This document shows positions 2 to 32,395 of a stretch of 51,014 bases of DNA, piece after piece; the stretch's first letter is position 1, and each line of letters begins with the position of its first letter. The notes under the pieces were generated by a model that saw only the letters and a program-made list of their open reading frames with translations, was not told the origin of the DNA and ran no database searches. This DNA comes from Patescibacteria group bacterium. GTDB taxonomy: Bacteria; Patescibacteriota; Patescibacteriia; 2-12-FULL-57-11. The position numbers and the translations under genes were made by a program. The stretch lies in contig SCSU01000052.1 in the NCBI GenBank assembly GCA_004299275.1, positions 1-51,014 on the forward strand. Direction: 5' to 3'.

Positions 2-469
2 TTCCGATCTAATTACTACGGCGCCGGCCAACAGCTCTGGAAGATTCTGCCGCGCGCCGCAATCACCGTTCATCGAGGAGAAAAACTGCCGCTGCACGGC
101 GGCGGCGCGGCGCTCAAAACCTGGATTCACGTCCGCGACGCGGCGCGGGGGGTGATTGCCGCGCTCGAGCGCGGGAGAGTCGGCGAGGTTTATCATTTCT
201 CCGACGCCGCCAATGTGCTCACCGTCGCCGAGGCGGTGCGGCGAATCAGCGCGGCGATGGGAGTCAATTTTGAAGAGGTGATCGAGATGGCGCCGGTCCG
301 GCTTGGCCAGGACCCGCGTTATCTCCTGGATTACAGCAAAGCCGGGCGCGAGCTCGGCTGGCGGCCGGAAGTAAAGTTTGACGACGGCCTTCGCGAATTA
401 ATCAGCTGGGTTCTGACCAATTGGACGACGATTAGCGGTTTGCCCCGAGAATATGTCCACCGGGCCTGA
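2..469 (+). CDS. NAD-dependent epimerase/dehydratase, C-terminal part (5' truncated by window start)
   Basis: Frame 2 is open from the window start: FRSNYYGAGQQLWKILPRAAITVHRGEKLPLHGGGAALKTWIHVRDAARGV, continuing into the 152..469 ORF. SNYYGxGQ and WIHVRDAA are typical of extended SDR sugar dehydratases. Confidence 0.8.
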   Translation, partial: FRSNYYGAGQQLWKILPRAAITVHRGEKLPLHGGGAALKTWIHVRDAARGVIAALERGRVGEVYHFSDAANVLTVAEAVRRISAAMGVNFEEVIEMAPVRLGQDPRYLLDYSKAGRELGWRPEVKFDDGLRELISWVLTNWTTISGLPREYVHRA

Positions 470-1673
470 AATTGAGAAAAAATATTTTTCTGTTAGCCGC
501 GAGCGCGACCGCTGTATCGTCTGCGGCCGGGCCGGACTAACCGAAGTTTTGCCGCTTCCGGCCTTGCCGCTTACCGGGATTTTCTTACAGCCGGGCGAAG
601 ACCGCTCGCGCTATCCGAATTTTGACCAGGCCCTGCTTTTTTGCGACGAGTGCGGCCATGGGCAGCTCCGTTTTTTTATTGACCCCAAAGTCGTTTACGG
701 CAGTATTTACACGCACCGTTCCTCACGAAGCCCGATTGCCGCCGGCGGCAACGATTTTTTCGCTGCCTTTGTCGGCCAAGTCGCCGCCGGCCGCAATTTC
801 AACCGCGTGGTGGATATCGGCTGCAACGATTTATATCTGCTTGGCAAGTTTCGGGGCCGCGCGGCGGAACTCATTGGCATTGACCCCATCTGGCGGGGGA
901 AAGCGCCGCCGGAATCCGGCGGGGCGCGGGTCATCGGCAAATTCGCGGAGGAGGTTGATTTTGAGCGCGAGGCCGGCGGCGCCGACCTTGTTCTTTCGGC
1001 CCACACTTTTGAACACGTGGATTCCCCGCTCGCCCCGCTCGCGCGCGCCCTCGCCGCCGCCGCGCCGGGCGCGCTTTTCGTGATTGAAGTGCCGAGTTTG
1101 GACACCTTGCTCGCTAATCTGCGTTTTGACCAAGTGTTCCATCAGCACGTCAACTACTTCAGCCTAGCGTCGATGAGCCGGCTCATTCGCGAGCTCGGCG
1201 GCGAGTACCTCGCGCATACTTATAATTACGGCTACTGGGGCGGCACGATGCTCGTCGCTTTCCGTAAACCCGCCGGCCGTCCCGCTCCGCCGCCGGAGTT
1301 CAACCGGCCCGCTCGCGAGAGTATTGCCGAAAGTTACGCGCGTTTCCGCGAGCAGATGGACCTCGTCCGCCGCGCGCTTCTCGCGGCTCGCCACGAGACA
1401 ATCTACGGTTACGGCGCTGCGCAGATGCTGCCGACCTTGGCTTATCATCTTCGGAGCGACCTCTCATTTTTGGCCGGTCTGCTCGATGACGACCCGGCTC
1501 GGGGCGGTTTGACGTATCCGACGCTGCCGATTATCATACGAAATCCGGCGGACGATTTTTCGCTCGCTAATTCAACGGCGCTTTTGACTGCGCTGGACTC
1601 GGCGCGGCCGATACTTCGGCGCTTAATTGCTCTCGGCGCGCGCCGCATCATCCTGCCATTACCTATTCTGTAA
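453..1673 (+). CDS. SAM-dependent C-methyltransferase with N-terminal zinc-binding domain
   Basis: N-terminal CxxCG...CDECGHGQL cysteine motif, VVDIGCNDLYLLGKF SAM motif, C-terminal YGYGAAQMLP/LLDDDPARGG; resembles sugar C-methyltransferases. Confidence 0.8.
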   Translation: MSTGPEIEKKYFSVSRERDRCIVCGRAGLTEVLPLPALPLTGIFLQPGEDRSRYPNFDQALLFCDECGHGQLRFFIDPKVVYGSIYTHRSSRSPIAAGGNDFFAAFVGQVAAGRNFNRVVDIGCNDLYLLGKFRGRAAELIGIDPIWRGKAPPESGGARVIGKFAEEVDFEREAGGADLVLSAHTFEHVDSPLAPLARALAAAAPGALFVIEVPSLDTLLANLRFDQVFHQHVNYFSLASMSRLIRELGGEYLAHTYNYGYWGGTMLVAFRKPAGRPAPPPEFNRPARESIAESYARFREQMDLVRRALLAARHETIYGYGAAQMLPTLAYHLRSDLSFLAGLLDDDPARGGLTYPTLPIIIRNPADDFSLANSTALLTALDSARPILRRLIALGARRIILPLPIL

Positions 1674-1675
1674 CT

Positions 1676-2452
1676 ATGGACTTGGGACTAAAGGGCAAAC
1701 GCGCGCTAGTGACCGGCGCTGGCCGCGGCATCGGCCGCGCCATCGCGCTCGCGCTCTCCCGCGAGGGCGCCAAGGTCGCGGTTTTCTCGCGGAATGACGC
1801 GGACGTGAGCTCGCTCCTCGCGGCGATGGGCGGCGCGGCGGCCGGCCACTATGGGGGACCATTTGACCTGATGGCGCCGGGTGCGCCGGAGCGTTTGGCC
1901 GAGACGCTAAACGCCCGTTTCGGACTGCCGGATATCTTGGTGCATAACGTCGGTGGGACGCTCGAGGTGACCGACCCGTTTTGTTCGCTCGTGGATTGGC
2001 GCCGGGTCTTTCGATTCAATTTTGAGATCGCGGTTGAACTGGATCAGATTTTTATTCCGGCGATGCGCGAACGGCGATGGGGGAGAGTGGTGCATGTCGG
2101 CTCGACTTCTTCGATGGAGAATAACGGCCCGATTACCTACTGCGCCGCCAAGGCGGCGCTCGTCGCTTATTCGCGCAGTATGGGGCGCGTGCTGGCCAAA
2201 GACGGAGTAGTGATGTCTGCGGTGCTCCCAGGCGCCGTTTTTACCGAAGGCGGTTACTGGGACGAGGCCCTGCGCGAACGGCCGGAGCACGTGCAAAAAT
2301 ATCTCGCCGACCGGTGCCCCTTGGGCCGCTTCGGCCGGCCGGAGGACATCGCGGCGATGGTCGTTTTCCTTTGTTCTGAACTCGCGGAGTTCTGCCAGGG
2401 TTCAATCGTCCCGGTTGACGGCGGGCAGAGCCGGCATTTTTTTGCCCAATAA
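1676..2452 (+). CDS. SDR family oxidoreductase
   Basis: TGAGRGIGRAIA, HNVGG, YCAAKAAL, C-terminal VPVDGGQS. Confidence 0.9.
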   Translation: MDLGLKGKRALVTGAGRGIGRAIALALSREGAKVAVFSRNDADVSSLLAAMGGAAAGHYGGPFDLMAPGAPERLAETLNARFGLPDILVHNVGGTLEVTDPFCSLVDWRRVFRFNFEIAVELDQIFIPAMRERRWGRVVHVGSTSSMENNGPITYCAAKAALVAYSRSMGRVLAKDGVVMSAVLPGAVFTEGGYWDEALRERPEHVQKYLADRCPLGRFGRPEDIAAMVVFLCSELAEFCQGSIVPVDGGQSRHFFAQ

Positions 2453-2468
2453 AATTATTACAACCTCT

Positions 2469-3146
2469 ATGGAACGCGCTTCCAAAGAAATCCATAACCA
2501 AAAGCAGTTTGACCTCTACGCCGAGCTCGGTCCGGTTCGTTTGGGACCCTACACTTCCTATATCTGGCGCACCGACCCAAAGCATCTGCAATTTTTACTT
2601 TCCCGTTACCTGTTCGTGAGCAAGATGCTCGCGGGCAAATCCGAAGCGCTCGAGGTCGGTTGCGGCGACGCCTTGGGGACGCCGATAGTGCTCCAAACGG
2701 TAAAAAAAGTTTACGCCCTGGATTTCGAGCCGATCGTGATTGACGCCGCGCGGCATTGCATTGACCCAACGCTTAATTGCGAATTCGTGGTTCAGGACAT
2801 CACCGAAGCGCCGTTCGCCAAAAAGGTGGATGCTGTTTACTCGCTCGATTGTATTGAACACATACCGCCGGAAAAGAGCGAACGTTACTTTGCCAATGTC
2901 GCCGCTTCAATAAACAACGATGGCATCGCGATTATCGGCACGCCGAATATTACGGCTAATGCCTACGCCTCGGAGGGCAGCCGCACCTGTCATGTCAACC
3001 TCCAGAGCCACGAGACGTTGCGAGCCGCTCTCGCGGCGCATTTCAAGAATGTCTTTATCTATTCCATGAACGATGGTCTGGTGCATACCGGTTTTTACCC
3101 CATGGCCCATTACTTGCTCGGGGTCGGCGTCGGCAAAAAAATATGA
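2469..3146 (+). CDS. class I SAM-dependent methyltransferase
   Basis: LEVGCGDALGTP motif, YSLDCIEHIP. Start placed at ATG 2469 rather than 2415, to avoid overlap with the SDR. Confidence 0.8.
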   Translation: MERASKEIHNQKQFDLYAELGPVRLGPYTSYIWRTDPKHLQFLLSRYLFVSKMLAGKSEALEVGCGDALGTPIVLQTVKKVYALDFEPIVIDAARHCIDPTLNCEFVVQDITEAPFAKKVDAVYSLDCIEHIPPEKSERYFANVAASINNDGIAIIGTPNITANAYASEGSRTCHVNLQSHETLRAALAAHFKNVFIYSMNDGLVHTGFYPMAHYLLGVGVGKKI

Positions 3147-4942
3147 TGAATGTTTCCGAATACATCGCGGACTTTTTGGTGCGGCAGGGCATCGGACACG
3201 TCTTTGTCGTGACCGGCGGCGCCGTGGCCTGCCTGATTGATTCGGTCGCCAAGGACCGGCGGCTCGCTTACGTTTGCACTCAGCACGAGCAGGCGGCGGC
3301 TTTTGCCGTGGACGGCTATACGCGAGTGACCGGCAAGATGGGGGCGGCGATTGTGACCACCGGCCCGGGAGTCACCAACCTCGCGACCGGTGTCGCCAAT
3401 CTTTATTATGATTCGTTGCCGTCTATTTTTATCGCCGGTCAGGTTTCTACTTTTCGTCTGGCCGAGAACGCGCCCGGCGTCCGCCAGCTGGGTTTCCAGG
3501 AGGCGCCACATGTCGAATTGATGAGACCGATTACCAAGTACGCGGTTTTGGTGGCGGATCCCTCTCACATCCGTTACGAATTGGAAAAAGCGCTGTACCT
3601 GGCGGTGACTGGCAGGCCGGGTCCGGTTTTTCTGGACATTCCCGACGACGTCCAGCGCATGGAAATTGATCCCGAACGCATGGCGGGGTTCGAGCCGCCT
3701 CCAGCGCCGACCAAAGATTTATCCGGACTTTCTTTACAGGTTGATGAGGCGCTCCGACTGCTTGCGGCGGCGCGGCGGCCGATTGTCGTCTTGGGCGCGG
3801 CGGTCAAAATCGCGCGGCAACAGGCGCAGGCGATTGAATTTGTGGAAAAGTTTGGTTTGCCGACCGCCCTCACCTGGGCGGTTTGGGAACTTCTCCCGAC
3901 CGACCATCCGCTCCAGACTGGCGGCTTCGGCGTGAGTTCCACGCGCCGCGGCAACTTCGCCATTCAGAACGCCGATTTCGTGCTGTCAGTCGGCTCGCGG
4001 CTTGACACTCACGCGACCGGCACGCCCATCGCGACCTTCGCCCGCGAGGCGAAAAAAGTCATTGTTGAATTGGACGCCGCCGAGCTCAATAAATTCATGA
4101 GCGGCGGGATGCGCGTGGATGTGCCGATACTCTCCGACGTCCGTGATTTTTTTGTCGCTCTCCGCGACAAATTTACGGCCGTACAAGTCGGCGACATTAC
4201 GGAATGGCGGGCAAAAATCGCCGAGTGGCGCGAGCGTTACCCGGTTTGCCTGCCGGAGTTCCGCGAGAGCCGCGGCAGCGTCAACCCCTACGTTTTCCTG
4301 GAGATGCTCTCCGAGGAAACCGCGCCGGATGATATTATTATTCCCGATTGCGGCGGTAATCTAATCCAGACTTATCAAGGGTATCGCTTGCGGCGAGGCC
4401 AGCGGATATTTTCCGCCTTCAATAATTCCCCCATGGGCTACTCGCTGTCCGGCTCCATCGGCGCATGTTTCGCGAACGGCGGACGCCGGGTTATCTGCAT
4501 CACCGGTGACGGCGGCCTGCAGGTGAATATCCAAGAGCTCGGCACCGTGGCCCATCACCATCTGCCGATTAAGATTTTTCTTTTTAACAATCACGGTTAC
4601 GGGATTATCCAGCAGACTCAGGACGACTGGTACGGTTCGCGCTACATCGCCTCGCGGCCGCAGACGGGCCTGGCTGACCCCGATTATGTGAAGATCGCCG
4701 AGGCCTACGGCATCCGCGCCTGGACCGCGCGCTCGCATGACGACCTGCGCCAGATTATCCGGCTCACCCTGGCCCATCCGGGCCCGGCCCTCTGCAACAT
4801 GGAGTTCAGTCAGGACCAGCGCCTCCACCCGATGCTTAAAGCCGGCCGGCCGATTGAGGACCCCAATCCGCTTTTGCCGCGGGAACAATTTTTCCGCGAG
4901 ATGCTGGTCAAGCCGCTTGACAGCTCGCTCTGCGAAGACTAA
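3143..4942 (+). CDS. thiamine pyrophosphate-binding enzyme, acetolactate synthase-like
   Basis: QHEQAAAFAVDGYTRVTGKMGAAIVTTGPG N-terminal TPP domain; GDGGLQVNIQELGT...NNHGYG cofactor motif. Confidence 0.9.
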   Translation: MMNVSEYIADFLVRQGIGHVFVVTGGAVACLIDSVAKDRRLAYVCTQHEQAAAFAVDGYTRVTGKMGAAIVTTGPGVTNLATGVANLYYDSLPSIFIAGQVSTFRLAENAPGVRQLGFQEAPHVELMRPITKYAVLVADPSHIRYELEKALYLAVTGRPGPVFLDIPDDVQRMEIDPERMAGFEPPPAPTKDLSGLSLQVDEALRLLAAARRPIVVLGAAVKIARQQAQAIEFVEKFGLPTALTWAVWELLPTDHPLQTGGFGVSSTRRGNFAIQNADFVLSVGSRLDTHATGTPIATFAREAKKVIVELDAAELNKFMSGGMRVDVPILSDVRDFFVALRDKFTAVQVGDITEWRAKIAEWRERYPVCLPEFRESRGSVNPYVFLEMLSEETAPDDIIIPDCGGNLIQTYQGYRLRRGQRIFSAFNNSPMGYSLSGSIGACFANGGRRVICITGDGGLQVNIQELGTVAHHHLPIKIFLFNNHGYGIIQQTQDDWYGSRYIASRPQTGLADPDYVKIAEAYGIRAWTARSHDDLRQIIRLTLAHPGPALCNMEFSQDQRLHPMLKAGRPIEDPNPLLPREQFFREMLVKPLDSSLCED

Positions 4943-4955
4943 GAAGACACTCATT

Positions 4956-6518
4956 ATGGCTCAAACTGACAACGCGCGAAAAAAGACAACGCTCCTCACC
5001 TTGCGGGCGATGAAGCAGCGGGGCGAGAAAGCGGTTTTTATCACCGCCTACGACTACCCCTTCGGCCTTTTTGCCGACCGCGCTGGCGTGGACATGATTT
5101 TGGTCGGCGATTCGCTGGCCATGACCACGCTCGGCCACGCGACCACTCTGCCGGTTACCATGGATGAGATGATCTCCCATGCCGCGGCGGTGCGCCGCGC
5201 GGTCAAGTATGCCTTCCTCATCGGCGACATGCCGTTTATGTCTTATCAGCCCTCGGACCGCGACGCCGTGCTCTCGGCCGGACGTTTTATCGCCGAGGCG
5301 GGCTGTGACGCGGTTAAGTGCGAGGGCGGTCGTCGAGTCGCGGCACGGGTCAAGGCCATGGTTGACGCCGGTATCGTCGTCATGGGCCACCTGGGGATGA
5401 CACCGCAGAATATGGCTCAAATCGGCGGCTACCGCGTACAGGGTAAAACCAAGGCGAGTTATGACGCGCTGCTTGATGACGCGCTGGCTCTGGAAGAAGC
5501 CGGAGCGTCATTTCTCTTGCTCGAAGCCATGCCCGCCGAAACCGCCGCTCTGATTCGCGATCGGCTTAAAATCCCGGTTTACGGCATCGGTGCCGGTGAC
5601 CAGGTGGACGGGCAGCTCGTGATTATCCATGACATTTTAGGGATGTTTGAACAGTTTAAGCCTAAGTTTGTGAAGCGTTTTGTGGAGGCGGGCGCGTTGA
5701 TCGAGGAAGGAATTACCCGCTACGCCTCCGAGGTGCGTTCCGGCAAGTTCCCGACGCGCGAAAATTTTTATGAAATTGACGGAGACGAGCTGCAAAAGAT
5801 TTGTTCCGCGCCGCGCGGCGAGGCGGCGCCGGTCTCGGCCGTCCAATTTTTACTTGGAAAAGAAATTAATCTCCTGGATCGTTATCCGCATTCTGCGCGC
5901 AACATTGCCGCGCGCGCCGATTGGCTGGCCGCTAAACCGGAAAACCGCGCCGTTGCCAAACAGTACGGCCGGGAATACTTCGACGGCACGCGCGACCAGG
6001 GCTACGGCGGTTACCATTACGACGGCCGTTGGATTCCGGTGGTGGAGCGTTTTATCGAGCACTATGGGCTCAGATCGGCGAGTTCCGTGCTGGATGTCGG
6101 TTCGGCCAAGGGGTTTTTCCTCCACGACCTCAGAATGCTTCGCCCGGGCATTTCGGTCGCCGGCCTTGATGTCTCGGAGTATGCTATTCAAAACGCCATG
6201 TGGGACGTGCGGCAATTTTTACAGGCGGGCAACGCCGTTTCCCTGCCGTATCCCGACAAATCTTTTGATTTGGTGGTGGCGATAAATACGCTGCATAATT
6301 TGAAACGCGAGGATTGCAAGCGCGCGCTCCGGGAGATTATGCGCGTCTCCCGCGGGCCGGCCTACATCCAAGTTGATTCGTATTTAAATCCCCGGCAAAA
6401 GGAAAATCTGGAGCGCTGGCAGCTCACGGCGGAGCTCATCTATTCGCCGGAAGAATGGCACCAACTTTTCCGCGAGGCGGGATATACCGGCGATTATTAT
6501 TGGACAATCATTGAGTGA
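4956..6518 (+). CDS. panB: 3-methyl-2-oxobutanoate hydroxymethyltransferase (PanB) domain fused to a SAM-dependent methyltransferase
   Basis: N-terminal part has PanB motifs (TAYDYPFGLFADRAGVDMILVGDSLAM, DMPFMSY, GHLGMTPQ, GGYRVQGKT, IGIGAG, EVRSGKFP). C-terminal part has VLDVGSAKGFFLHDL and DLVVAINTLHNL. Both lie in one continuous frame. ATG 4956 is used; the 4737 start overlaps the upstream gene. Confidence 0.88.
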   Translation: MAQTDNARKKTTLLTLRAMKQRGEKAVFITAYDYPFGLFADRAGVDMILVGDSLAMTTLGHATTLPVTMDEMISHAAAVRRAVKYAFLIGDMPFMSYQPSDRDAVLSAGRFIAEAGCDAVKCEGGRRVAARVKAMVDAGIVVMGHLGMTPQNMAQIGGYRVQGKTKASYDALLDDALALEEAGASFLLLEAMPAETAALIRDRLKIPVYGIGAGDQVDGQLVIIHDILGMFEQFKPKFVKRFVEAGALIEEGITRYASEVRSGKFPTRENFYEIDGDELQKICSAPRGEAAPVSAVQFLLGKEINLLDRYPHSARNIAARADWLAAKPENRAVAKQYGREYFDGTRDQGYGGYHYDGRWIPVVERFIEHYGLRSASSVLDVGSAKGFFLHDLRMLRPGISVAGLDVSEYAIQNAMWDVRQFLQAGNAVSLPYPDKSFDLVVAINTLHNLKREDCKRALREIMRVSRGPAYIQVDSYLNPRQKENLERWQLTAELIYSPEEWHQLFREAGYTGDYYWTIIE

Positions 6519-7549
6519 ACATGCGTGCCGCAGTACTTATCGCTCCGGGCAAGCCGTTAGAAATTTGGGACGTCGTTTTGCCGGAACCGGGTCTTGGCCA
6601 AGTCCGGGTGCGTTTGCGCCGGAGCGGCATCTGCGGCAGTCAATTGCTCGAAGTTAGCGGTAGCCGGGGGGAGGACGCCTATCTGCCGCATCTCCTCGGT
6701 CACGAGGGTTCGGGAACAGTGATCTCCGTCGGCGCCGGCGTCACTAAGGTGCGTCCCGGTGACCGGGTTATTATTTCTTGGATGACAGGAGTTGGTCTGG
6801 ACGCCGGCGGCCTTCGGCTTACTGCCGGAACCCGAACGGTCAACGCCGGGCCGGTCGCCACGCTGGCGGAGGAGGCAATTGTGCCGGAGAACCGGCTAGT
6901 TCCTATCCCCGACGGTGTTCCGCTCCCCGACGCCGCGCTGGTCGGCTGCGCGCTGGCCACTGGCTGCGGCATCGTGCGCAATACTCTGCAATTACGCGCG
7001 GGACAATCAATCGCGGTATTTGGCGCCGGCGGCATCGGAATCAATGTTGTCCAGATGGCACGTTACTCGGGTGCCGGCCCGATAATTGCCATAGACGTTG
7101 ACCAAAAAAAGTTGGCGTGGGCTAAGGAATTCGGCGCCACCGAGGTGATTGACGCGCGCCGCGAAGATGTTCTCGGCGCGATTTACGCGTTCTCCGGCGG
7201 CGGCGTTGACGCGGCGGTCGCGACTGCCGGTTCCCGCTCTTCAATGGAGCTCGCTCTCGCCGCGGTCAAGCGCGGCGGCACGGCGGTAATTGCCGGGAAC
7301 CTCGCGGCCGGCGAACGCGTGAGCATTGACCCGTTTGATTTGATCAAAGGAAAGCGGCTTATCGGCACCTGGGGTGGAGAGAATAATCCGGACAGCGACT
7401 TTCCTTTTTATCTGGATCTCGTGAGGCAAGGAGCGCTGCGGCTTAAAGAACTTGCCAGTCACAGCTTTCCTTTGGAAGCGGTCAACGAGGCGCTGGCTGC
7501 GCTTCGCGCCGGCAACGCGCTGCGCGCTGTTGTTGATCTCGCGCCATAA
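6515..7549 (+). CDS. zinc-binding (MDR family) alcohol dehydrogenase
   Basis: GHEGSGTV, GAGGIGINVVQMA, SGGGVDAAVATAG. The start overlaps the preceding stop (GTG at 6515, or ATG at 6521). Confidence 0.9.
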   Translation: MNMRAAVLIAPGKPLEIWDVVLPEPGLGQVRVRLRRSGICGSQLLEVSGSRGEDAYLPHLLGHEGSGTVISVGAGVTKVRPGDRVIISWMTGVGLDAGGLRLTAGTRTVNAGPVATLAEEAIVPENRLVPIPDGVPLPDAALVGCALATGCGIVRNTLQLRAGQSIAVFGAGGIGINVVQMARYSGAGPIIAIDVDQKKLAWAKEFGATEVIDARREDVLGAIYAFSGGGVDAAVATAGSRSSMELALAAVKRGGTAVIAGNLAAGERVSIDPFDLIKGKRLIGTWGGENNPDSDFPFYLDLVRQGALRLKELASHSFPLEAVNEALAALRAGNALRAVVDLAP

Positions 7550-7551
7550 AT

Positions 7552-8268
7552 ATGCCCGAGCTCACCATTGTCGTCCCTTGTTACAACGAAGTAACGGTCA
7601 TTGCCAAGACGCTTTCAAACATTATGGACGCTTTGGCCGGACGCAGTCTGGAGGCCGAAGTTTTGGTTGTTGACGATTGCTCAACGGACAACACCGCCGG
7701 TGTGGTCGCGGCGTATCAGAACGCGCACCCGGACGCAATGGTTAAATTGCATCGGAATCCCGTGAACCGCGGCTCCGGTTACAGTTACGCCGCCGGCGCC
7801 GCGTTCGGAACCGGCCGGTGGTGCATATTGGTCCCGGGTGATAACGACCTGCCGGCAGATGCGCTTAGCGCCATTTTTAATCGTCTCGGTTCGGCGGAGA
7901 TTCTTCTGCCCTACCCGCGACTGGAGGATTTCCGGGAGCGGCCGCTGCTCAGGCGCGTAGTTTCGCGCGCTTATAACGCGCTGATTTGTTTTGCCGGCGG
8001 TATCAGGGTGCGGTACGTGCACAGCCCGCCGGTTTATCCGCGGGAGTTTATTGTTTCTTCAAAAATTTCGCCATCTGGTTTTGGATATTTTGCCGAATTG
8101 CTCTGTCTAGCCGTCAGGACTGGACTAACGGTTGCCGAGTTCCCGGTACCGGCCCTTTACGGCCAGCAAGAGGGCACCAGCGCGTTTCGTCTCGCCAACC
8201 TGCGTTCGGTTGCCGCGAGCATCGCCAGGATTTTTATGCGGCGCGTGCTTCCGCGCTCTCACGGTTGA
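7552..8268 (+). CDS. glycosyltransferase family 2
   Basis: PELTIVVPCYNEVTVI, VVDDCSTDNT, VPGDNDLP. Confidence 0.88.
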   Translation: MPELTIVVPCYNEVTVIAKTLSNIMDALAGRSLEAEVLVVDDCSTDNTAGVVAAYQNAHPDAMVKLHRNPVNRGSGYSYAAGAAFGTGRWCILVPGDNDLPADALSAIFNRLGSAEILLPYPRLEDFRERPLLRRVVSRAYNALICFAGGIRVRYVHSPPVYPREFIVSSKISPSGFGYFAELLCLAVRTGLTVAEFPVPALYGQQEGTSAFRLANLRSVAASIARIFMRRVLPRSHG

Positions 8269-9455: not shown

Positions 9456-11342
9456 TTGCCTATGGCTATATTGGAAATTTTTGACCGGCGGATCGGCGCC
9501 GGCGAGCCCGTGCTCGTCATGGCCGAGATCGGCGTCAATCATCAGGGCAAGCTTGATTTGGCGCATCGCTTGATTGACGCTGCCGCCGACGCCGGAGTCG
9601 ACGTCGTCAAATTTCAAAAACGGAGCTTGTCCACGCTGTATCAGGAAAAATTGCTGGAAAATCCCAATCTCGGGGAGCAGGCTTTCCAGTATCTGCTGCC
9701 GATTTTGCGCGAGGCCGAGTTTGGCGAAAATGAATTTCGCGAATTGATGTCCCATGCCCGGAGCCGCGGGGTGCGGTTTTTATGCACGCCGTTTGACGAG
9801 GAGAGCGTTGACTTTCTAGAACGGCTGGGCGTGGTCGCCTACAAAGTGGCTTCGGCCGATCTGACCAACAATCTGCTGCTCCAGAAAATCGCTCGGGCAG
9901 GGAAGCCGATGCTCGTCTCCACGGCCATGGCGACGAGCGAAGAGATCCAGGGCGCGGTTGATTTTTTGCGTTCTTTGGGCGCGCGTTTCGCCCTGCTCCA
10001 CTGTGTGGCGGCCTATCCCGCGCCGCCCGAGGATTTGAATTTGCGCTTTATCACCGAACTGGAGCGGCGTTTCCCCGAGGTGCCCATCGGTTATTCTGGC
10101 CACGAACGCGGCATCGCCTGCACTTTGGCCGCGGTGTCGCTGGGCGCGGCGGTGGTCGAACGGCACATTACGCTCGACCGCTCCATGGAGGGGCCGGACC
10201 ACGCCGCCAGCTTGGAGCCGGACGATTTCCGCGCCATGGTCGCGATGATCCGCGAGATTGACCGGGCGTTGGGCGTGCCGCAGAAGATTTTGAGCCACAT
10301 GGAGCAGGCCAATCGCAAGGTCTTGGCTAAATCGCTGGTAGCGGCGCAAGACATCGCGGCTGGCACCGTGATTACCCGCGAGCTAGTTGCGGCTAAGAGT
10401 CCGGCCAAGGGTCTGCCGCCCTACCGTCTGCCGGAGCTACTCGGCCGTCGGACAACTCGCGCGATACCGCGCGATTCCTGCCTCTCACTCGAGGATTTCG
10501 GCGCGCCAACAGCGAGCTTTGCGCGGCCAGATTACCGGACGCCGTGGGCGCTCAAAACCCGTTTTTCCGAAATTGATTTTGCCGAACAGTTTGAGCCGCC
10601 GATGTTTGAATTCCACCTGTCGGACAAAGACATTGACGAACCATTCGTTCCCAAAAAACATTACCGCCAGCGCTTATTCGCGCACGCGCCGGATTACATG
10701 GGCCGGCGGGTCAAGGATCTGGCATCGCTCGATGATGACCACTGGGAGCGCTCCATCGCGTTTTGCCAGCAGGTGATTGACAAAGTGCATAGTTTAGCGC
10801 CATTTTTTGAGGGGCCGCCGGCTTTAGTGATCCACGTCGGCGGGGCCTCAATGGACCCGGTTTGTAAAAATCGGGAACGCCTGCTCGCGCGCTCGCTTGC
10901 GGCCTTCCGCCGGCTTCGGACGGACGGGATTATTTTGCTTCCGGAAAATTTGCCGCCCCACGGCTGGTATTTTTCCGGCCAGTGGTTTAACCACATTTTC
11001 GCCGAGGCCGAGGAGGTCGTTAACTTTGCCCGTGAATTGGGGCTGCGCATCTGTTTTGACACGGCCCACGCTCGCCTTGCCTGCAACGTTCTAAAAAAAG
11101 ATTACCGCCGGTTCGTGGAAACCGTCGCGCCGCTGACCGATTACGTGCAGGTATCCGACGCGGCGGGGTTCTCCCGCGAGGCGCTCCAGATCGGCGAGGG
11201 CGAAATTGATTTTGCCGAAACTTTTGATATCCTCAGACGCCACCCCGGCTGGCGCTGGTGCCCGGAGATTTGGGAAGGGCACCTCAATGGTTACCGCGGA
11301 TTTTTAACCGCGCTCGAACGGCTCAAGCCGTTTATCCCCTAA
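9456..11342 (+). CDS. NeuB-family ulosonate synthase with SAF domain, fused to a C-terminal TIM-barrel (sugar isomerase/AP endonuclease 2-like) domain
   Basis: MAEIGVNHQGKLDLA, VKFQKR, LLHCVAAYPAP, GYSGHERG, HITLDRSMEGPDHAASLEP, SAF segment AKSLVAAQDIAAGTVIT. Then about 260 aa with LPENLPPHG, ICFDTAHA, YVQVSDAAG and CPEIWEGH. Confidence 0.88.
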   Translation: MPMAILEIFDRRIGAGEPVLVMAEIGVNHQGKLDLAHRLIDAAADAGVDVVKFQKRSLSTLYQEKLLENPNLGEQAFQYLLPILREAEFGENEFRELMSHARSRGVRFLCTPFDEESVDFLERLGVVAYKVASADLTNNLLLQKIARAGKPMLVSTAMATSEEIQGAVDFLRSLGARFALLHCVAAYPAPPEDLNLRFITELERRFPEVPIGYSGHERGIACTLAAVSLGAAVVERHITLDRSMEGPDHAASLEPDDFRAMVAMIREIDRALGVPQKILSHMEQANRKVLAKSLVAAQDIAAGTVITRELVAAKSPAKGLPPYRLPELLGRRTTRAIPRDSCLSLEDFGAPTASFARPDYRTPWALKTRFSEIDFAEQFEPPMFEFHLSDKDIDEPFVPKKHYRQRLFAHAPDYMGRRVKDLASLDDDHWERSIAFCQQVIDKVHSLAPFFEGPPALVIHVGGASMDPVCKNRERLLARSLAAFRRLRTDGIILLPENLPPHGWYFSGQWFNHIFAEAEEVVNFARELGLRICFDTAHARLACNVLKKDYRRFVETVAPLTDYVQVSDAAGFSREALQIGEGEIDFAETFDILRRHPGWRWCPEIWEGHLNGYRGFLTALERLKPFIP

Positions 11343-13786: not shown

Positions 13787-15595
13787 ATGCCTCCGAAAGT
13801 TTTAATTATTGGGTTAGGGTCAATCGGCCGCCGGCATGTCCAGAACCTTCGCGCTTTGGGCGTGAATGATATTTTCGCTTTTCGCAGCCGCGGCGCGGCT
13901 GCCCGCCCGCTTGAGCCCGGGGAGCAGGTTCTGACCGTGCCGACTCTCGAGGCCGGACTGGCCCGGAAACCGGACATTGTTTTTGTCACCAACCCGACCG
14001 CTTTTCACCTCGCGACCGCCCGCGCGGCGGTCAGAGCCGGCGCCCATGTTTTTATCGAAAAGCCGATCAGCCATACGCCAAACGGCGTGGAGGAATTTTT
14101 AAGCGAGGCGGCCGCGGCCGGCCGTCATGTTTTTGTCGGCTTCAACTTTCGGTTCCATCCGACTATCCGTATTGCCCGCGAGCGGCTCCTTGCCGGCGCG
14201 ATCGGCCGGCCGGTGTCGGCGCGTTTTGCCATCGGCGAATATCTGCCCGACTGGCATCCTTGGGAGGACTATCGCACAAGCTACAGCGCGCGAGCTGAGC
14301 TCGGCGGCGGCGTGCTACTCACTCAAATCCACGACATTGATTTACTTAATTGGTTTTTTGGATTGCCTCGAGAGGTCACGGCTTCGTTGGGCACCTGCGG
14401 GGAGCTAGGCGTTGATGTTGAAGACGTCGCCGCTTTGATTTGCAATTATGAGCGACTGATTGCCGAAGTGCATCTGGATTATTTGGAAAAACCGGCGCGG
14501 CGGTGCTTCACCATCATCGGTACGGGAGGAAAAATGGAGTGGACGCAACAAGACGGCACGCTGCGTATCTGGCGCCACGGCGCAAGTGAGCCGGAAGAGC
14601 ACCGGGCGCCCCTGGGTTTTGAACGCAACGACATGTTTTTGGCGGAAGCGGCCCACGTGTTGGCGGTGCTCCGGGGAGAAGAAAGCTCCCTTATCTCCGG
14701 TGACGCCGGACGCGACGCGCTTAAAATCGCGGCGGCGGCGAAACGCGCTTCCGCCGAGCGCCGCATCTGTCCGCTTGTCGCGGGCGAAAGGGAGCATAAC
14801 CCCTTTGACCTTACTGGGCGCGTGGCTATCGTGACTGGCGCGACCGGACTATTAGGGCGAGAATATGCTGACGAACTCTCGCGCGCCGGCGCGACCGTCG
14901 TCGCCACAGATCTGAGTCAGGGGCGCTGTGTGGAGCTCGCCGCTTCGCTGTCGGCGGCAACCGGCGGCAAAGTCATCGGGCTCGCCGCCGACATCACTAA
15001 CAGCGAAGAGGTAGACCGGCTGGTCGCCGAAACGGAGAGGCGCTTCGGCCGGATTGATATTTTGGTCAATAACGCCGCGATGAACCCCGTCCCCGGTTTG
15101 GCGATTTTTGAAAAATCTTTCGCGCCTTTTGAGGAATATCCGCGCGAACTTTGGGAACGGGAGCTCGCGGTAAACGTTACTGGCCCCTTTTTGCTCTGCC
15201 AGCGCGTCGGCGCGCTCATGGCGCGGCAGGGGAGGGGTTCGATTATCAACATCTCTTCCACCTACGGTAATGTCGCGCCGGACCATCGCATATACGGTCC
15301 CGGCAAATACAAATCCGTCGGCTATGCCGTAACCAAATCCGCGGTGCTTAATTTGACGCGTTATCTTGCTGCTTACTGGGGGCCGAAAGGGGTCCGGGTG
15401 AATACGCTGACCCCGGGCGGCGTTGGTGCCGGACAAGACCCGGACTTCCGGCGCCAATATGCCGACCGGACCATGCTCGGGCGGATGGCCGAGAAGAACG
15501 AATACCGCGGCGCGATTCTCTACCTCGCTTCGGATGCCTCGAGTTACATGACCGGCGCGAATCTTATCGTTGACGGCGGCTGGACCGCGTGGTAA
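13787..15595 (+). CDS. Gfo/Idh/MocA oxidoreductase fused to a C-terminal SDR domain
   Basis: N-terminal VLIIGLGSIGRRHVQNLRALG, FIEKPISHT. C-terminal GRVAIVTGATGLLGREYADEL, DILVNNAAMNP, YAVTKSAV, LIVDGGWTAW. Single 602-aa ORF. Confidence 0.88.
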   Translation: MPPKVLIIGLGSIGRRHVQNLRALGVNDIFAFRSRGAAARPLEPGEQVLTVPTLEAGLARKPDIVFVTNPTAFHLATARAAVRAGAHVFIEKPISHTPNGVEEFLSEAAAAGRHVFVGFNFRFHPTIRIARERLLAGAIGRPVSARFAIGEYLPDWHPWEDYRTSYSARAELGGGVLLTQIHDIDLLNWFFGLPREVTASLGTCGELGVDVEDVAALICNYERLIAEVHLDYLEKPARRCFTIIGTGGKMEWTQQDGTLRIWRHGASEPEEHRAPLGFERNDMFLAEAAHVLAVLRGEESSLISGDAGRDALKIAAAAKRASAERRICPLVAGEREHNPFDLTGRVAIVTGATGLLGREYADELSRAGATVVATDLSQGRCVELAASLSAATGGKVIGLAADITNSEEVDRLVAETERRFGRIDILVNNAAMNPVPGLAIFEKSFAPFEEYPRELWERELAVNVTGPFLLCQRVGALMARQGRGSIINISSTYGNVAPDHRIYGPGKYKSVGYAVTKSAVLNLTRYLAAYWGPKGVRVNTLTPGGVGAGQDPDFRRQYADRTMLGRMAEKNEYRGAILYLASDASSYMTGANLIVDGGWTAW

Positions 15596-15630: not shown

Positions 15631-16680
15631 ATGTCCAGACAAATGATGATCGGCTCGACGCCGGTCGGCGACGGTTTGCCCTGCTACCTCATCGCTGAAG
15701 CCGGGGTTAACCATAACGGCGACCCAGAGATCGCCCGTGCGCTTATAGACCGCGCGGCGGAGGTTAAAGCCAGCGCGGTCAAATTTCAAAAACGCACGAT
15801 CCCCGAGATTTTGGTGCGCTCGGCGCTGGAGAAACCTTATTTGAGTTCCACCGCGCTCGGGCCGACTTACGGCGAGCACCGGGAAAAACTGGAACTCTCC
15901 GAGGCGGTTTATTACAAACTTTTCGCGGCCGCGGCGGAGCGGGGCATCCACTTTTTGGCCAGCGGCTGGGACAAAACCGCGGTGGACTTTTTGGATAGCT
16001 TGGGCGTGCCGGCTTTTAAGGCCGCCTCAGCCGATGTTACCAACCTGCCGCTGCTTGAGCATATTGCCCGCAAGAGTAAGCCCGTCATTCTTTCCACCGG
16101 CATGAGTTCAGTAGAGGAGATTGACGAAGCCGTAGAGACCGTGCTCGCGCACAACGAAAATTTAATTCTTCTCCACTGCGTTTCCACTTACCCCTCGCCC
16201 AACGACAGCATCAACCTCCGGGTGATGGAGACGCTCCGCCGCCGCTACAACTTGCCCATCGGCTACTCCGGTCATGAGCGCGGTATCGCGATTTCCGTCG
16301 CGGCGCGCGCGCTCGGCGCGGTGGTGATAGAAAGGCATTTTACTCTGGACCGCGCGATGCGCGGACCTGACCACGCCGCCTCGCTCGAGGTCGCCGGCCT
16401 CCAAAAACTGGTCCAGTATGTCCGTACCGTGGAGCAGGCCTTGGGCTCGGCCGAAAAGGGCATCCAAAGCGATGAGGCGCCGATGAGGAACAAATTGGCC
16501 AAGAGCGTGGCCAGCGCCGCGCGGATTCCCGCCGGCGCCGTAATCAGCGCGGCGATGCTCACGATCAAGGGTCCCGGCGACGGCCTGAAGCCCAAATATC
16601 TCCGCGCGCTTATCGGCAAAATCGCGCAGCAGGACATCGAGGCCGATACGCTGATTCCGCCGGAGGCGCTCCATTGGTAG
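15631..16680 (+). CDS. neuB: NeuB-family N-acetylneuraminate/ulosonate synthase with SAF domain
   Basis: IAEAGVNHNGDPEIA, VKFQKR, STGMSSVEEID, LLHCVSTYPSP, GYSGHERG, HFTLDRAMRGPDHAASLE. Confidence 0.88.
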   Translation: MSRQMMIGSTPVGDGLPCYLIAEAGVNHNGDPEIARALIDRAAEVKASAVKFQKRTIPEILVRSALEKPYLSSTALGPTYGEHREKLELSEAVYYKLFAAAAERGIHFLASGWDKTAVDFLDSLGVPAFKAASADVTNLPLLEHIARKSKPVILSTGMSSVEEIDEAVETVLAHNENLILLHCVSTYPSPNDSINLRVMETLRRRYNLPIGYSGHERGIAISVAARALGAVVIERHFTLDRAMRGPDHAASLEVAGLQKLVQYVRTVEQALGSAEKGIQSDEAPMRNKLAKSVASAARIPAGAVISAAMLTIKGPGDGLKPKYLRALIGKIAQQDIEADTLIPPEALHW

Positions 16681-30160: not shown

Positions 30161-32395
30161 ATGAAGGGAGCAGGAGGCGAGGCCGCCAAAAGATTTTTAT
30201 TTATTATCGCTGCAGTCGCGGTGATTGCCTTGGTGTTCAACCCGGCCGCGACTATCGCGTCTAGCGCGCCCCGAACTCACCGTCTCGGTGAACTGCTTAT
30301 TAAATACCGTGGCCAGAGCACGGTCAATAAAATAATTTTTGACAGCGAGGTGGCGGCTGACGGCGCGCTCGCGGCTTATAAAAAAAATCCATTGGTGGAA
30401 ACGGCGAGCCGGAATGCTTTGGTCAAAATCGCGGCCGAGGCGCCCTTCCCCGACGACGAGCAGTTTTACCAGCAGTGGTATCTCCAAAAAATTCGCGCGC
30501 CCGAGGCCTGGAAGACAACGCAGGGTTCAAGGACGGTGGTGGTGGCGGTATTGGACACCGGCGTGGACACCAATCACCCCGACCTTCGTAACAATATCTG
30601 GACCAACCCGCGCGAGATTTTGGACGGTCTAGACAACGACGGCAACGGCTACCCCGACGACACGAACGGCTGGAATTTTATTGACCAAACCGGCGATCCG
30701 CGGCCGACTTTTACGGGCGGCTGGACCGACGCCGGCGTCCACCACGGGACGATGGTGGCCGGCTTGATCGGCGCGGTCGGCAATAACTCGATCGGTGTCG
30801 CCGGCACCGCCTGGTACGTGCGGCTCATGCCGATTCGGGTTTTAGACAGCATGGGCGTCGGCGACGTGTTGGACGTGACCCGAGGCATTGATTACGCCGT
30901 AAAAAACGGGGCGCAAATTTTGAACCTATCCTTTGTCGGGCTGGAGCGCAACGACTTGCTGGACGCGGCGATTGCCCGCGCCCATGCCGCGGGAGTGCTC
31001 GTGGTCGCCGCGGCCGGCAACGACAGCGCGAACGGCGGGCTCAACCTTGACGCTAACCCGCAATATCCGGTGTGCTCTGACGGCGGTCCGGGGAATAATA
31101 ATGTGATTGGCGTTACCGCCACCACCGAGACGGACCTAAAGGCCTCGTTTTCCGGTTACGGAACCCATTGCGTTGACCTGGCCGCGCCGGGAGTGAGCAT
31201 CTTTTCCACCAGGTTTGAGAATCCCTCCTTACCCAATTTTCAAAAGGCCTACGGCGGTTATTGGCAGGGCTCCTCGCTCGCCGCGCCGCTCGTGACCGGA
31301 GCCGCCGCCCTGATTAAGTCGCTGAACCCCGCGCTCGGCAACGACCAGATTCGCGATATTTTAATGGCCTCGGCCGATAAAATTGACGGGCAGAATCCCG
31401 AGTTCTCGGGCAAGCTCGGCGCCGGCCGGCTGAATTTGGCCGTGGCGCTCAAATCCGTTGCCGGTAATCTGCCGGCCGCCGGCCTGTCACGCGCCTACCT
31501 CGGCGTGGCCGCGTCCGCCGGCGTTCCCGGGGAGGTAAAACTTTTTGACCGCAACGGCGGATTTGTCCGTTCCTTTTTGGCCTACGAGGCGCCCTTTAAG
31601 GGCGGGCTCACGGCCGCGGCCGGGGACCTCGACGGCGACGGCCATGAGGAAATCGTAACCGCGCCGCAGAGCTCCTACGCGCCATGGGTGAGGATTTTTG
31701 ATTCGGCCGGGATTAAGCGCGCTGAATTTTTGGCCTACGCCGCCTCGTGGCGCGGCGGGGTCAACGTGGCCGTGGGCGACGTTGACGGCGACGGCCGCGC
31801 GGAGATCGTGACCGGCGCGGGCAAGGGCGGCGGGCCGCACGTCAAAGTTTTTGATGGCCAGGGCCGGACGCGGGCGTCGTTTTTCGCCTATGACCAAAAA
31901 TTCCGTGGCGGGGTCAACGTGGCCGTGGGCGACGTTGACGGCGACGGCCGCTCCGAGATTGTGGCCGGACCGGGCGCCGGCGGCGGGCCGCACGTCCGTG
32001 TTTTTAACGGAGACGGCAGTTTGAAGACCGAGTTTTTTGTGGGTAAAAAAGAGGACAGCCGCGGCTTGCGCGTGGCGGTCGGCGACACCCAGGCCCAGGG
32101 CATCGGCGGCATCGGAGTTTTTCCGGCGGCCGGCGTGGCCAACACTCTTTATCTGATGAATATCCTGGGCGTGCTCTACGGCGTGGTGGAGGTCGCGGCC
32201 TCAACGCAGAATTTTCCTTTCGCTTTGGGCGATATCGATGGCCGCGGCCGGGCGTTCCTGCTCGTCTCCGTCCCGACTAAAGAGGGGATGAGCTTGTCGG
32301 TCTATGACACCGACGGCCGCGAGCGGGCTTATGCCCTGACTTACGTCAAAAAGAAAATGTCTCCGCCCAATCCTTTCGTGGTGCGGAGACCGTAG
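30161..32395 (+). CDS. secreted S8 (subtilisin-like) serine protease with C-terminal FG-GAP/VCBS-type repeats
   Basis: Signal peptide; VAVLDTGVDTNHPDL (Asp), HHGTMVAGLIGA (His), GSSLAAPLVTGAAAL (Ser); repeated VAVGDVDGDGRxEIVxGxGxGGGPHVxVF. Confidence 0.92.
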   Translation: MKGAGGEAAKRFLFIIAAVAVIALVFNPAATIASSAPRTHRLGELLIKYRGQSTVNKIIFDSEVAADGALAAYKKNPLVETASRNALVKIAAEAPFPDDEQFYQQWYLQKIRAPEAWKTTQGSRTVVVAVLDTGVDTNHPDLRNNIWTNPREILDGLDNDGNGYPDDTNGWNFIDQTGDPRPTFTGGWTDAGVHHGTMVAGLIGAVGNNSIGVAGTAWYVRLMPIRVLDSMGVGDVLDVTRGIDYAVKNGAQILNLSFVGLERNDLLDAAIARAHAAGVLVVAAAGNDSANGGLNLDANPQYPVCSDGGPGNNNVIGVTATTETDLKASFSGYGTHCVDLAAPGVSIFSTRFENPSLPNFQKAYGGYWQGSSLAAPLVTGAAALIKSLNPALGNDQIRDILMASADKIDGQNPEFSGKLGAGRLNLAVALKSVAGNLPAAGLSRAYLGVAASAGVPGEVKLFDRNGGFVRSFLAYEAPFKGGLTAAAGDLDGDGHEEIVTAPQSSYAPWVRIFDSAGIKRAEFLAYAASWRGGVNVAVGDVDGDGRAEIVTGAGKGGGPHVKVFDGQGRTRASFFAYDQKFRGGVNVAVGDVDGDGRSEIVAGPGAGGGPHVRVFNGDGSLKTEFFVGKKEDSRGLRVAVGDTQAQGIGGIGVFPAAGVANTLYLMNILGVLYGVVEVAASTQNFPFALGDIDGRGRAFLLVSVPTKEGMSLSVYDTDGRERAYALTYVKKKMSPPNPFVVRRP

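Follow-up and report, generated by a model that had tools for sequence, protein, structure and literature searches.

A PanB-type domain paired with a YerE-like ThDP-dependent enzyme in a glycan locus of a Patescibacteria group bacterium: a probable source of building blocks for branched surface sugars and not of vitamin B5

The window analysed here is a stretch of 51,014 nucleotides from a Patescibacteria group bacterium, the left end of which carries a series of genes on the forward strand. The C-terminal part of an NAD-dependent sugar-nucleotide epimerase/dehydratase (2..469), cut by the contig start and open in frame from base 2, is followed by a sugar C-methyltransferase of the Methyltransf_13/23/14 type (453..1673; Pfam, with the Methyltransf_14 part below cut-off; 49% identical to a homologue in locus L194), a short-chain dehydrogenase (1676..2452; Pfam; 60% identical to its L194 neighbour) and a class I methyltransferase (2463..3146; Pfam; 43% and 38% identical to proteins of L194 and L195). 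Next come a ThDP-dependent enzyme (3143..4942), a fused gene (4956..6518), a zinc-type alcohol dehydrogenase (6515..7549; Pfam; 46% and 44% identical to the genes that follow the methyltransferases of L194 and L195) that may reduce a branch ketone, and a family 2 glycosyltransferase (7552..8268; Pfam). The N-terminal part of the epimerase is apparently at the edge of contig G000:C2, and the frame at 2..469 appears to continue it; contig C2 is almost certainly contiguous with the window. Only one assembly scar was found, at this left end, where bases 1-10 (CTTCCGATCT) resemble the end of an Illumina adapter.

The open reading frame at 4956-6518 encodes 520 amino acids without internal stops, and its description in the first-pass annotation as PanB and a class I methyltransferase in one uninterrupted frame proved correct, both domains being full. 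The Pantoate_transf domain (PF02548, Pfam) matches residues 10-267 over profile positions 1-258 of 259 (350 bits versus a cut-off of 28.7, E 9e-105), and PRK00311 and TIGR00222 (panB) both score above cut-off (310.6 versus 207.6 bits for TIGR00222). The PanB-type hydroxymethyltransferase domain is assigned to residues 1-288 (4956..5819) from this match, its intact catalytic core and its clade membership. All seven catalytic residues that we take to be those of the E. coli structure (D45, S46, D84, K112, E114, H136 and E181, E. coli numbering) are kept. Matches to Methyltransf_11, 25 and 31 (Pfam) lie at residues ~373-511, within a complete class I SAM-dependent methyltransferase domain (5859..6518) that has free-standing homologues in L194 (54% identity), L195 (52%), L196 (44%) and L188 (43%). 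These relatives start at the equivalent of residue ~302 (position ~5859), and therefore the fusion joins two full-length proteins; a short linker forms the junction (5820..5858), between the point where PanB ends in the Chloroflexi locus L002 and the first residues of the free-standing methyltransferases. In the predicted structure the PanB barrel is mostly confident, and the methyltransferase part is unusable (mean pLDDT 62.5).

No second PanB-methyltransferase fusion turned up among 80 genome loci, 63 viral loci, 287 genomes of the phylum and 4 genomes of the order, and a methyltransferase search of the viral contigs gave no match. This rarity is what would be expected if the fusion were a misassembly or sequencing error joining two true but separate neighbours, a reading that we consider extremely unlikely. 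Both domains are complete and in frame; no in-frame ATG, GTG or TTG is present between 5736 and 6038, which leaves the methyltransferase without a separate start near the junction; and neither GC nor GC3 jumps there. The order of methyltransferase then alcohol dehydrogenase is shared with L194 and L195, which also argues against misassembly. The emphasis placed on the fusion fared less well: the fusion is real, but as a conserved architecture it was rejected, since it was seen only in the window among the loci and genomes searched. Syntenic relatives encode the methyltransferase as an ordinary gene of its own, so the fusion is of secondary importance; what matters is the pairing of PanB with the ThDP enzyme.

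The gene at 3143-4942, which automatic annotation would call acetolactate synthase, contains all three TPP-enzyme domains (Pfam) and is described here as a YerE-like ThDP-dependent carboligase. Its nearest PDB chain by a clear lead is 8rph (JanthE, 380 bits), followed by 5ahk, which we take to be PpYerE (272 bits), in a tie with E. coli AHAS I (271 bits), and by plant AHAS (~258 bits). Its score against TIGR00118 (AHAS) is 385.9 bits, below the cut-off of 538.35, and the AHAS acceptor residues are replaced, Arg of DDRVTG by His and Trp of MQWED by Thr; the Trp is also missing from 68 of 68 viral ThDP enzymes. A role as AHAS in valine biosynthesis was rejected on these two grounds, and the initial suggestion of a YerE-like enzyme is borne out. 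By sequence comparison the enzyme is closer to YerE-like enzymes than to AHAS, and carboligation to a ketone is predicted. It is only 37-44% identical to its counterparts in L194, L002 and L003 and 29-40% identical to the viral ThDP enzymes, so substrates may differ.

When the neighbours of related PanB genes were tabulated, every partner was a ThDP enzyme and none was PanC. The comparison comprised 64 module loci, namely 63 IMG/VR viral contigs (mostly marine) and L002, with the window excluded; the viral loci had been found with PanB alone as the search query. A ThDP gene of the same family lies near PanB in all 63 viral loci and in L002, mostly directly adjacent (in L140 and L154 one or two genes intervene, and in L142 the ThDP gene is split), versus 0 of 78 ordinary PanB loci (Fisher p 5e-42). 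Conversely, PanC occurs in none of the 64 module loci versus 31 of the 78 ordinary ones. The module PanB proteins (45 sampled) form one side of a branch with SH-aLRT support of 95, and in the same tree the window PanB groups with that of L002 (support 98). The catalytic core is invariant in 66 of 66 module proteins, and the clade-specific changes V183M, I200Y and L213V (E. coli numbering) are close in sequence to residues that presumably line the keto-acid pocket. Among phage records, the PanB proteins are only 36-48% identical, and the best of them, that of MaAM05, for which the neighbours were read, is beside panC.

These observations bear on whether the window PanB serves pantothenate and CoA synthesis in the usual way, or is a viral gene for vitamin B5, and lies in a glycan locus by chance. 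Automatic annotation calls PanB above cut-off, and in a marine viral survey the vitamin gene found most abundantly in viruses encoded a pantoate transferase and was taken for a pantothenate gene (PMC8940887). The genome, however, encodes neither PanC nor KARI (IlvC), and the window PanB is its sole PanB; therefore it cannot serve de novo pantothenate synthesis, and the absence of KARI leaves no route of the cell's own to 2-ketoisovalerate. The Chloroflexi genome containing L002 carries, in addition to the PanB of that locus, another one whose neighbour looks like PanC. Together with the opposite distributions of PanC and the ThDP gene, these facts make the vitamin reading very unlikely; it was rejected for this genome for want of PanC and KARI and is already largely refuted. 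The original view that the pathway is not for pantothenate is supported.

The genome also encodes a candidate pathway for the acceptor sugar. Its only DegT-family protein is RfbH (712 bits versus a cut-off of 423 for NF011936; 575 bits to 3bcx), which has His at the PLP-lysine position (SFYPAHQITMGEGG). It is encoded on contig C2 together with genes resembling glucose-1-phosphate cytidylyltransferase (RfbF-like) and CDP-glucose dehydratase (DdhB-like), both of which score below their equivalog cut-offs. No 3-dehydrase lies within the window, and the linkage of RfbH to it follows from the inferred join of C2 and the window. Among the module loci, 51 of 64 encode a DegT-family protein, and all 53 copies have His at the PLP-lysine position; thus most loci of the clade are predicted to encode a 3-dehydrase of the ColD/RfbH type, the DegT protein of L002 being nearest to ColD. 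SHMT, for cofactor supply, is present in the genome.

From the gene content we infer that the PanB domain probably feeds a donor to the YerE-like sugar-branching enzyme, in steps for which the following substrates and order are proposed. PanB would move a hydroxymethyl group from methylene-tetrahydrofolate onto a small 2-keto acid. The likeliest candidates are pyruvate, which would give 4-hydroxy-2-oxobutanoate, and 2-oxobutanoate, in place of ketoisovalerate. The ThDP enzyme would decarboxylate the product and attach the resulting hydroxyacyl group at the ketone of a nucleotide-activated 3,6-dideoxy-4-ketosugar, an acceptor that RfbF, CDP-glucose 4,6-dehydratase and RfbH would supply, to yield a C-branched sugar. 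This sugar would then be methylated by the methyltransferases (the fused one and its neighbours), reduced by the alcohol and short-chain dehydrogenases and built into a surface glycan. The YerE-like enzyme ErwE, a precedent for such a donor, refuses pyruvate and prefers 4-hydroxy-2-oxobutanoate and its homologues (PMC12247030). The putative pathway to a branched sugar or keto-acid decoration envisaged at the outset gains support from the constant ThDP pairing, the likeness to JanthE and the CDP-3,6-dideoxy-4-ketosugar 3-dehydrase in the genome.

Loci related to the window but without PanB bear on the order of these steps. A NeuB-cupin protein is beside or near the ThDP gene in L170, L172, L173 and L184, as is a class I/II aminotransferase in L183 and L194; it is plausible that these are makers of 2-keto acids, often in the slot of PanB. 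L164-L166 and L177 have a GHMP kinase, no PanB and no obvious donor enzyme. Whereas the PanB proteins form one clade, the linked ThDP enzymes are scattered among PanB-free ones over several deep ThDP clades, with at least 4 label changes, as would result from re-pairing. An unlikely alternative is the reverse order, in which the ThDP enzyme, like YerE, first uses pyruvate to place an acetyl unit on the ketosugar, and PanB then hydroxymethylates the methyl of the acetyl branch; this would take the same genes. PanB chemistry requires a 2-keto acid chelated to Mg, and the catalytic core is unchanged, which speaks against this order, as does the presence of other plausible 2-keto-acid makers in the slot in several PanB-free loci, pointing to donor supply and not tailoring. 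The donor of YerE is nonetheless pyruvate (PMC12247030). Slightly less improbable, but still doubtful, is that PanB makes ketopantoate from 2-ketoisovalerate of the medium or host, and that the ThDP enzyme or an acyltransferase sets a branched C5 decoration on the sugar. In its favour, the sequence is unmistakably that of a PanB whose core is intact, and viral hosts may supply ketoisovalerate, but the genome has no KARI, a neopentyl-type donor derived from ketopantoate would on chemical grounds be very hindered in addition to a ketone, and V183M, I200Y and L213V lie near the presumed pocket.

The locus can be compared with several known systems. Like the C-branched sugar systems of YerE, ErwE and JanthE (yersiniose A, erwiniose), it places a ThDP carboligase from the decarboxylase superfamily among surface-glycan genes, and the genome has a pathway for 3,6-dideoxy-4-ketosugars; the difference is that here a dedicated PanB is proposed to supply the donor. 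The YerE review text makes no mention of ketopantoate or hydroxymethyl transfer, and no literature on PanB in glycan loci was found among open-licence full texts. Like PanB of known structure (PF02548; PDB 1m3u), the window domain is full-length with intact catalytic residues, but it belongs to a separate clade, has a ThDP partner instead of PanC/PanE and a fused methyltransferase, and presumably acts on another keto acid. The 3-dehydrases RfbH/DdhC (3bcx) and ColD (2gms), which make 3,6-dideoxy-4-ketosugars, likewise have His in place of the PLP lysine, but here they would probably feed C-branching instead of sugars of the abequose or colitose type. The trio of a PEP-mutase-superfamily enzyme, a ThDP decarboxylase and an alcohol dehydrogenase recalls the phosphonate genes PepM, Ppd and ADH, but the window has PanB and not PEP mutase; a phosphonate reading was rejected, as the open reading frame has no match to PEP mutase families in Pfam or NCBIfam and its PanB core is intact. 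Separately, such a PepM, Ppd and ADH locus is seemingly present, by inspection, at L093.

With moderate confidence, we regard the PanB of this clade, widespread in mostly marine viral contigs and present in a few bacteria, as the non-vitamin, donor-making half of an exchangeable cassette, in which a maker of 2-keto acids and a YerE-like ThDP carboligase together build hydroxyalkyl-branched sugars, and viral 'pantothenate' panB auxiliary genes belonging to the clade as misread. The enzymes of the clade probably make precursors of unusual branched surface sugars, not vitamin B5. If this is true, a vitamin enzyme has been reused for surface-glycan chemistry and is an enzymatic source of the functionalised keto-acid donors needed by sugar-branching enzymes of the ErwE type, and PanB/ThDP pairs would be new biocatalysts for tertiary alcohols. 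Some viral panB genes would be re-read from vitamin B5 supply to sugar branching, and C-branched sugars would be predicted both for uncultured bacteria and for glycan loci carried by phages.

A single open frame (4956-6518) encodes a complete ketopantoate hydroxymethyltransferase (PanB) domain and then a complete class I methyltransferase, bearing out the uninterrupted fusion proposed in the first-pass annotation. The PanB part matches PF02548 over profile positions 1-258 of 259 (350 bits) and possesses seven of seven catalytic residues. Homologous free-standing methyltransferases begin at the equivalent of residue ~302, and the end of the PanB part resembles that of the stand-alone PanB of a Chloroflexi locus (L002), which indicates that two full-length proteins were fused with a joint of about a dozen residues. 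No in-frame start codon occurs within 5736-6038, base composition is even over the junction, and in the predicted structure only the PanB part, over most of its length, is folded with confidence. Two free-standing methyltransferase relatives (54% in L194, 52% in L195) have the same ADH gene directly 3', and the partner of PanB in the window is the gene placed just before ADH in relatives; another, on a Desulfovibrionaceae plasmid (47%), follows a transketolase-C (E1beta-like) gene. The methyltransferase family is thus found with ThDP enzymes of either type, YerE-like or E1beta-like, and the fused copy may carry out O- or C-methylation of a branched sugar.

The genome, 1.0 Mb in size and rated as 100% complete, was examined for a separate panB or panC: the fusion protein is its only PanB, and neither PanC nor ketol-acid reductoisomerase (KARI, IlvC) is present; SHMT is present. 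PanB exceeds the cut-off in just 4 of 287 genomes of the phylum, including this one; the other three (L089-L091) lie near genes that by inspection look like PanC, and a PanB of the window's type was not found in the three other genomes of the same order. Taken together, these absences place the window PanB outside the de novo pantothenate route, and its scarcity in the phylum and order indicates that it was probably acquired horizontally. The modest genome size and the scarcity of panB also suggest an organism of the Patescibacteria type.

The closest PanB sequences found were those of L002 (71%) and L003 (61%). The latter is filed under a Prochlorococcus single cell, but is most likely viral, since an IMG/VR record (L098) has the same size (130,604 bases) and identical match coordinates. 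With PanB as the sole query, viral contigs yielded 63 loci. All 63 contain an ALS/YerE-like ThDP gene, which in most cases is the immediate neighbour of PanB, and both gene orders occur. With L002, the ThDP gene is present in 64 of 64 such module loci versus 0 of 78 other PanB loci from genomes (Fisher p 5e-42), whereas PanC is found in 0 of 64 versus 31 of 78 (Fisher p 5e-10). The module PanB proteins form about 22 groups at 80% identity, and therefore the pairing is not a single clone counted repeatedly. In a tree of 83 PanB proteins, a branch with SH-aLRT 95 separates the 45 module members from the rest, and those of the window and L002 group together (SH-aLRT 98); a second PanB of the L002 genome, with a neighbour that reads as PanC, falls outside the clade. 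Phage-type genes flank some viral loci (UvsX-like recombinase, L154; sigma factor, L140; exonuclease, L099); the viral status of the remaining contigs is the collection's own labelling. A B12-binding radical SAM protein is encoded close to the pair in 18 of the 64 loci (e.g. L002:6014-7528, L098:6431-7963). In nine (L139 and L120 among them) E1-type dehydrogenase/transketolase ORFs adjoin PanB and the ThDP gene, and so these viral sugar clusters combine two kinds of ThDP system.

The ThDP enzyme directly upstream of the fusion (3143-4942) is complete, with three domains. Its suggested kinship to YerE agrees with its best PDB match, 8rph (380 bits, versus ~271 for both 5ahk and E. coli acetolactate synthase (AHAS) I), the structure cited in the paper on JanthE, which is YerE-like and joins keto acids to ketones (PMC12188165). 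The L002 enzyme gave 331 bits to 8rph, 284 to 5ahk and 261 to plant AHAS. AHAS handles its acceptor by an Arg and a Trp; the window enzyme has His and Thr at these positions, and among module enzymes the Trp is missing from all and the Arg retained in about half. PanB-linked ThDP enzymes form several deep branches interleaved with PanB-free ones (at least four label changes). As PanB is one clade and its partners are scattered, PanB has probably changed partners among different carboligases, which is what a role as supplier of their donor would predict. The carboligase apparently occupies two adjacent ORFs in L142 (6255-8007), L177, L178 and L181, read directly, and in L146, L147, L151, L155 and L156, judged from short best ORFs.

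Four PanB-free viral loci encode a NeuB-cupin protein directly before the YerE-like ThDP gene (L170:6503-7999, L172:6476-8005, L173:6508-8004, L184:6490-8004), and a fifth (L183) a class I/II aminotransferase; an aminotransferase also precedes it in L194, a locus of the same phylum syntenic with the window. NeuB condensation and PanB hydroxymethylation give 4-hydroxy-2-oxo acids, and aminotransferases give 2-oxo acids; a 2-oxo acid donor is what all three have in common. Four PanB-free loci (L164-L166, L177) do not fit: there a GHMP kinase gene lies beside the ThDP gene, and a donor enzyme is not evident.

A DegT-family protein is encoded in 51 of the 64 module loci, and in all 53 copies, as in ColD and RfbH/DdhC, His takes the place of the PLP lysine of aminotransferases. 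The L002 copy is nearest ColD, and a long viral form (L150) passes the RfbH cut-off. The sole DegT protein of the source genome, on contig C2, is RfbH (712 bits versus a cut-off of 423; 575 bits to 3bcx); the contig also has genes resembling those for glucose-1-phosphate cytidylyltransferase and CDP-glucose 4,6-dehydratase, both under equivalog cut-offs. At its left end, C2 (G000:C2:1-530) carries the front portion of an epimerase gene, and the remaining portion of such a gene opens the window, behind ten adapter-like (Illumina) bases at 1-10 (CTTCCGATCT); the two contigs, which do not overlap, are therefore almost certainly neighbours. If adjacent, they would have RfbF-DdhB-RfbH lying upstream of the window genes, together with a second ThDP system. 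The acceptor of YerE is CDP-3,6-dideoxy-4-keto-D-glucose (PMC12247030). The second system, an E1alpha/E1beta-type pair resembling pyruvate dehydrogenase/transketolase within a sugar locus (L186, G000:C2:527-2576), is possibly another sugar-branching enzyme; in L195 the same pair replaces the YerE-like enzyme.

The window also encodes a NeuB synthase fused to a xylose-isomerase-like TIM barrel (AP_endonuc_2; 9456-11342), a second, unfused NeuB (15631-16680), a Gfo/Idh/MocA oxidoreductase fused to a short-chain dehydrogenase (13787-15595) and, inside the glycan locus region, a subtilase with C-terminal FG-GAP repeats (30161-32395). Elsewhere in the phylum, PEP mutase-like, phosphonopyruvate decarboxylase-like and ADH-like genes, identified by inspection, stand in a row in what is apparently a phosphonate locus (L093, G092:C2).

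The best reading of the pathway is YerE-like sugar branching fed by a hydroxymethyl-keto acid. Genomic context (ThDP gene in every module locus, PanC in none; a genome without PanC or KARI) strongly supports joint action of PanB and the ThDP enzyme in one such pathway, and favours a branched sugar, one of the two products first proposed, over pantothenate. Among open-licence full texts, no paper linking PanB with YerE-type chemistry was found. PanB acting on pyruvate would yield 4-hydroxy-2-oxobutanoate. Changes specific to the module clade (V183M, I200Y, L213V, E. coli numbering) may touch the keto-acid pocket. Given these changes, the missing KARI and the precedent of ErwE, a YerE-like enzyme that prefers 4-hydroxy-2-oxobutanoate and its homologues and refuses pyruvate (PMC12247030), our guess is that the donor is 4-hydroxy-2-oxobutanoate or its 3-methyl homologue. 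In a marine viral survey, a viral pantoate transferase was interpreted as serving the supply of pantothenate (PMC8940887); the existence of the module clade suggests that viral genes of this kind may serve sugar branching instead.
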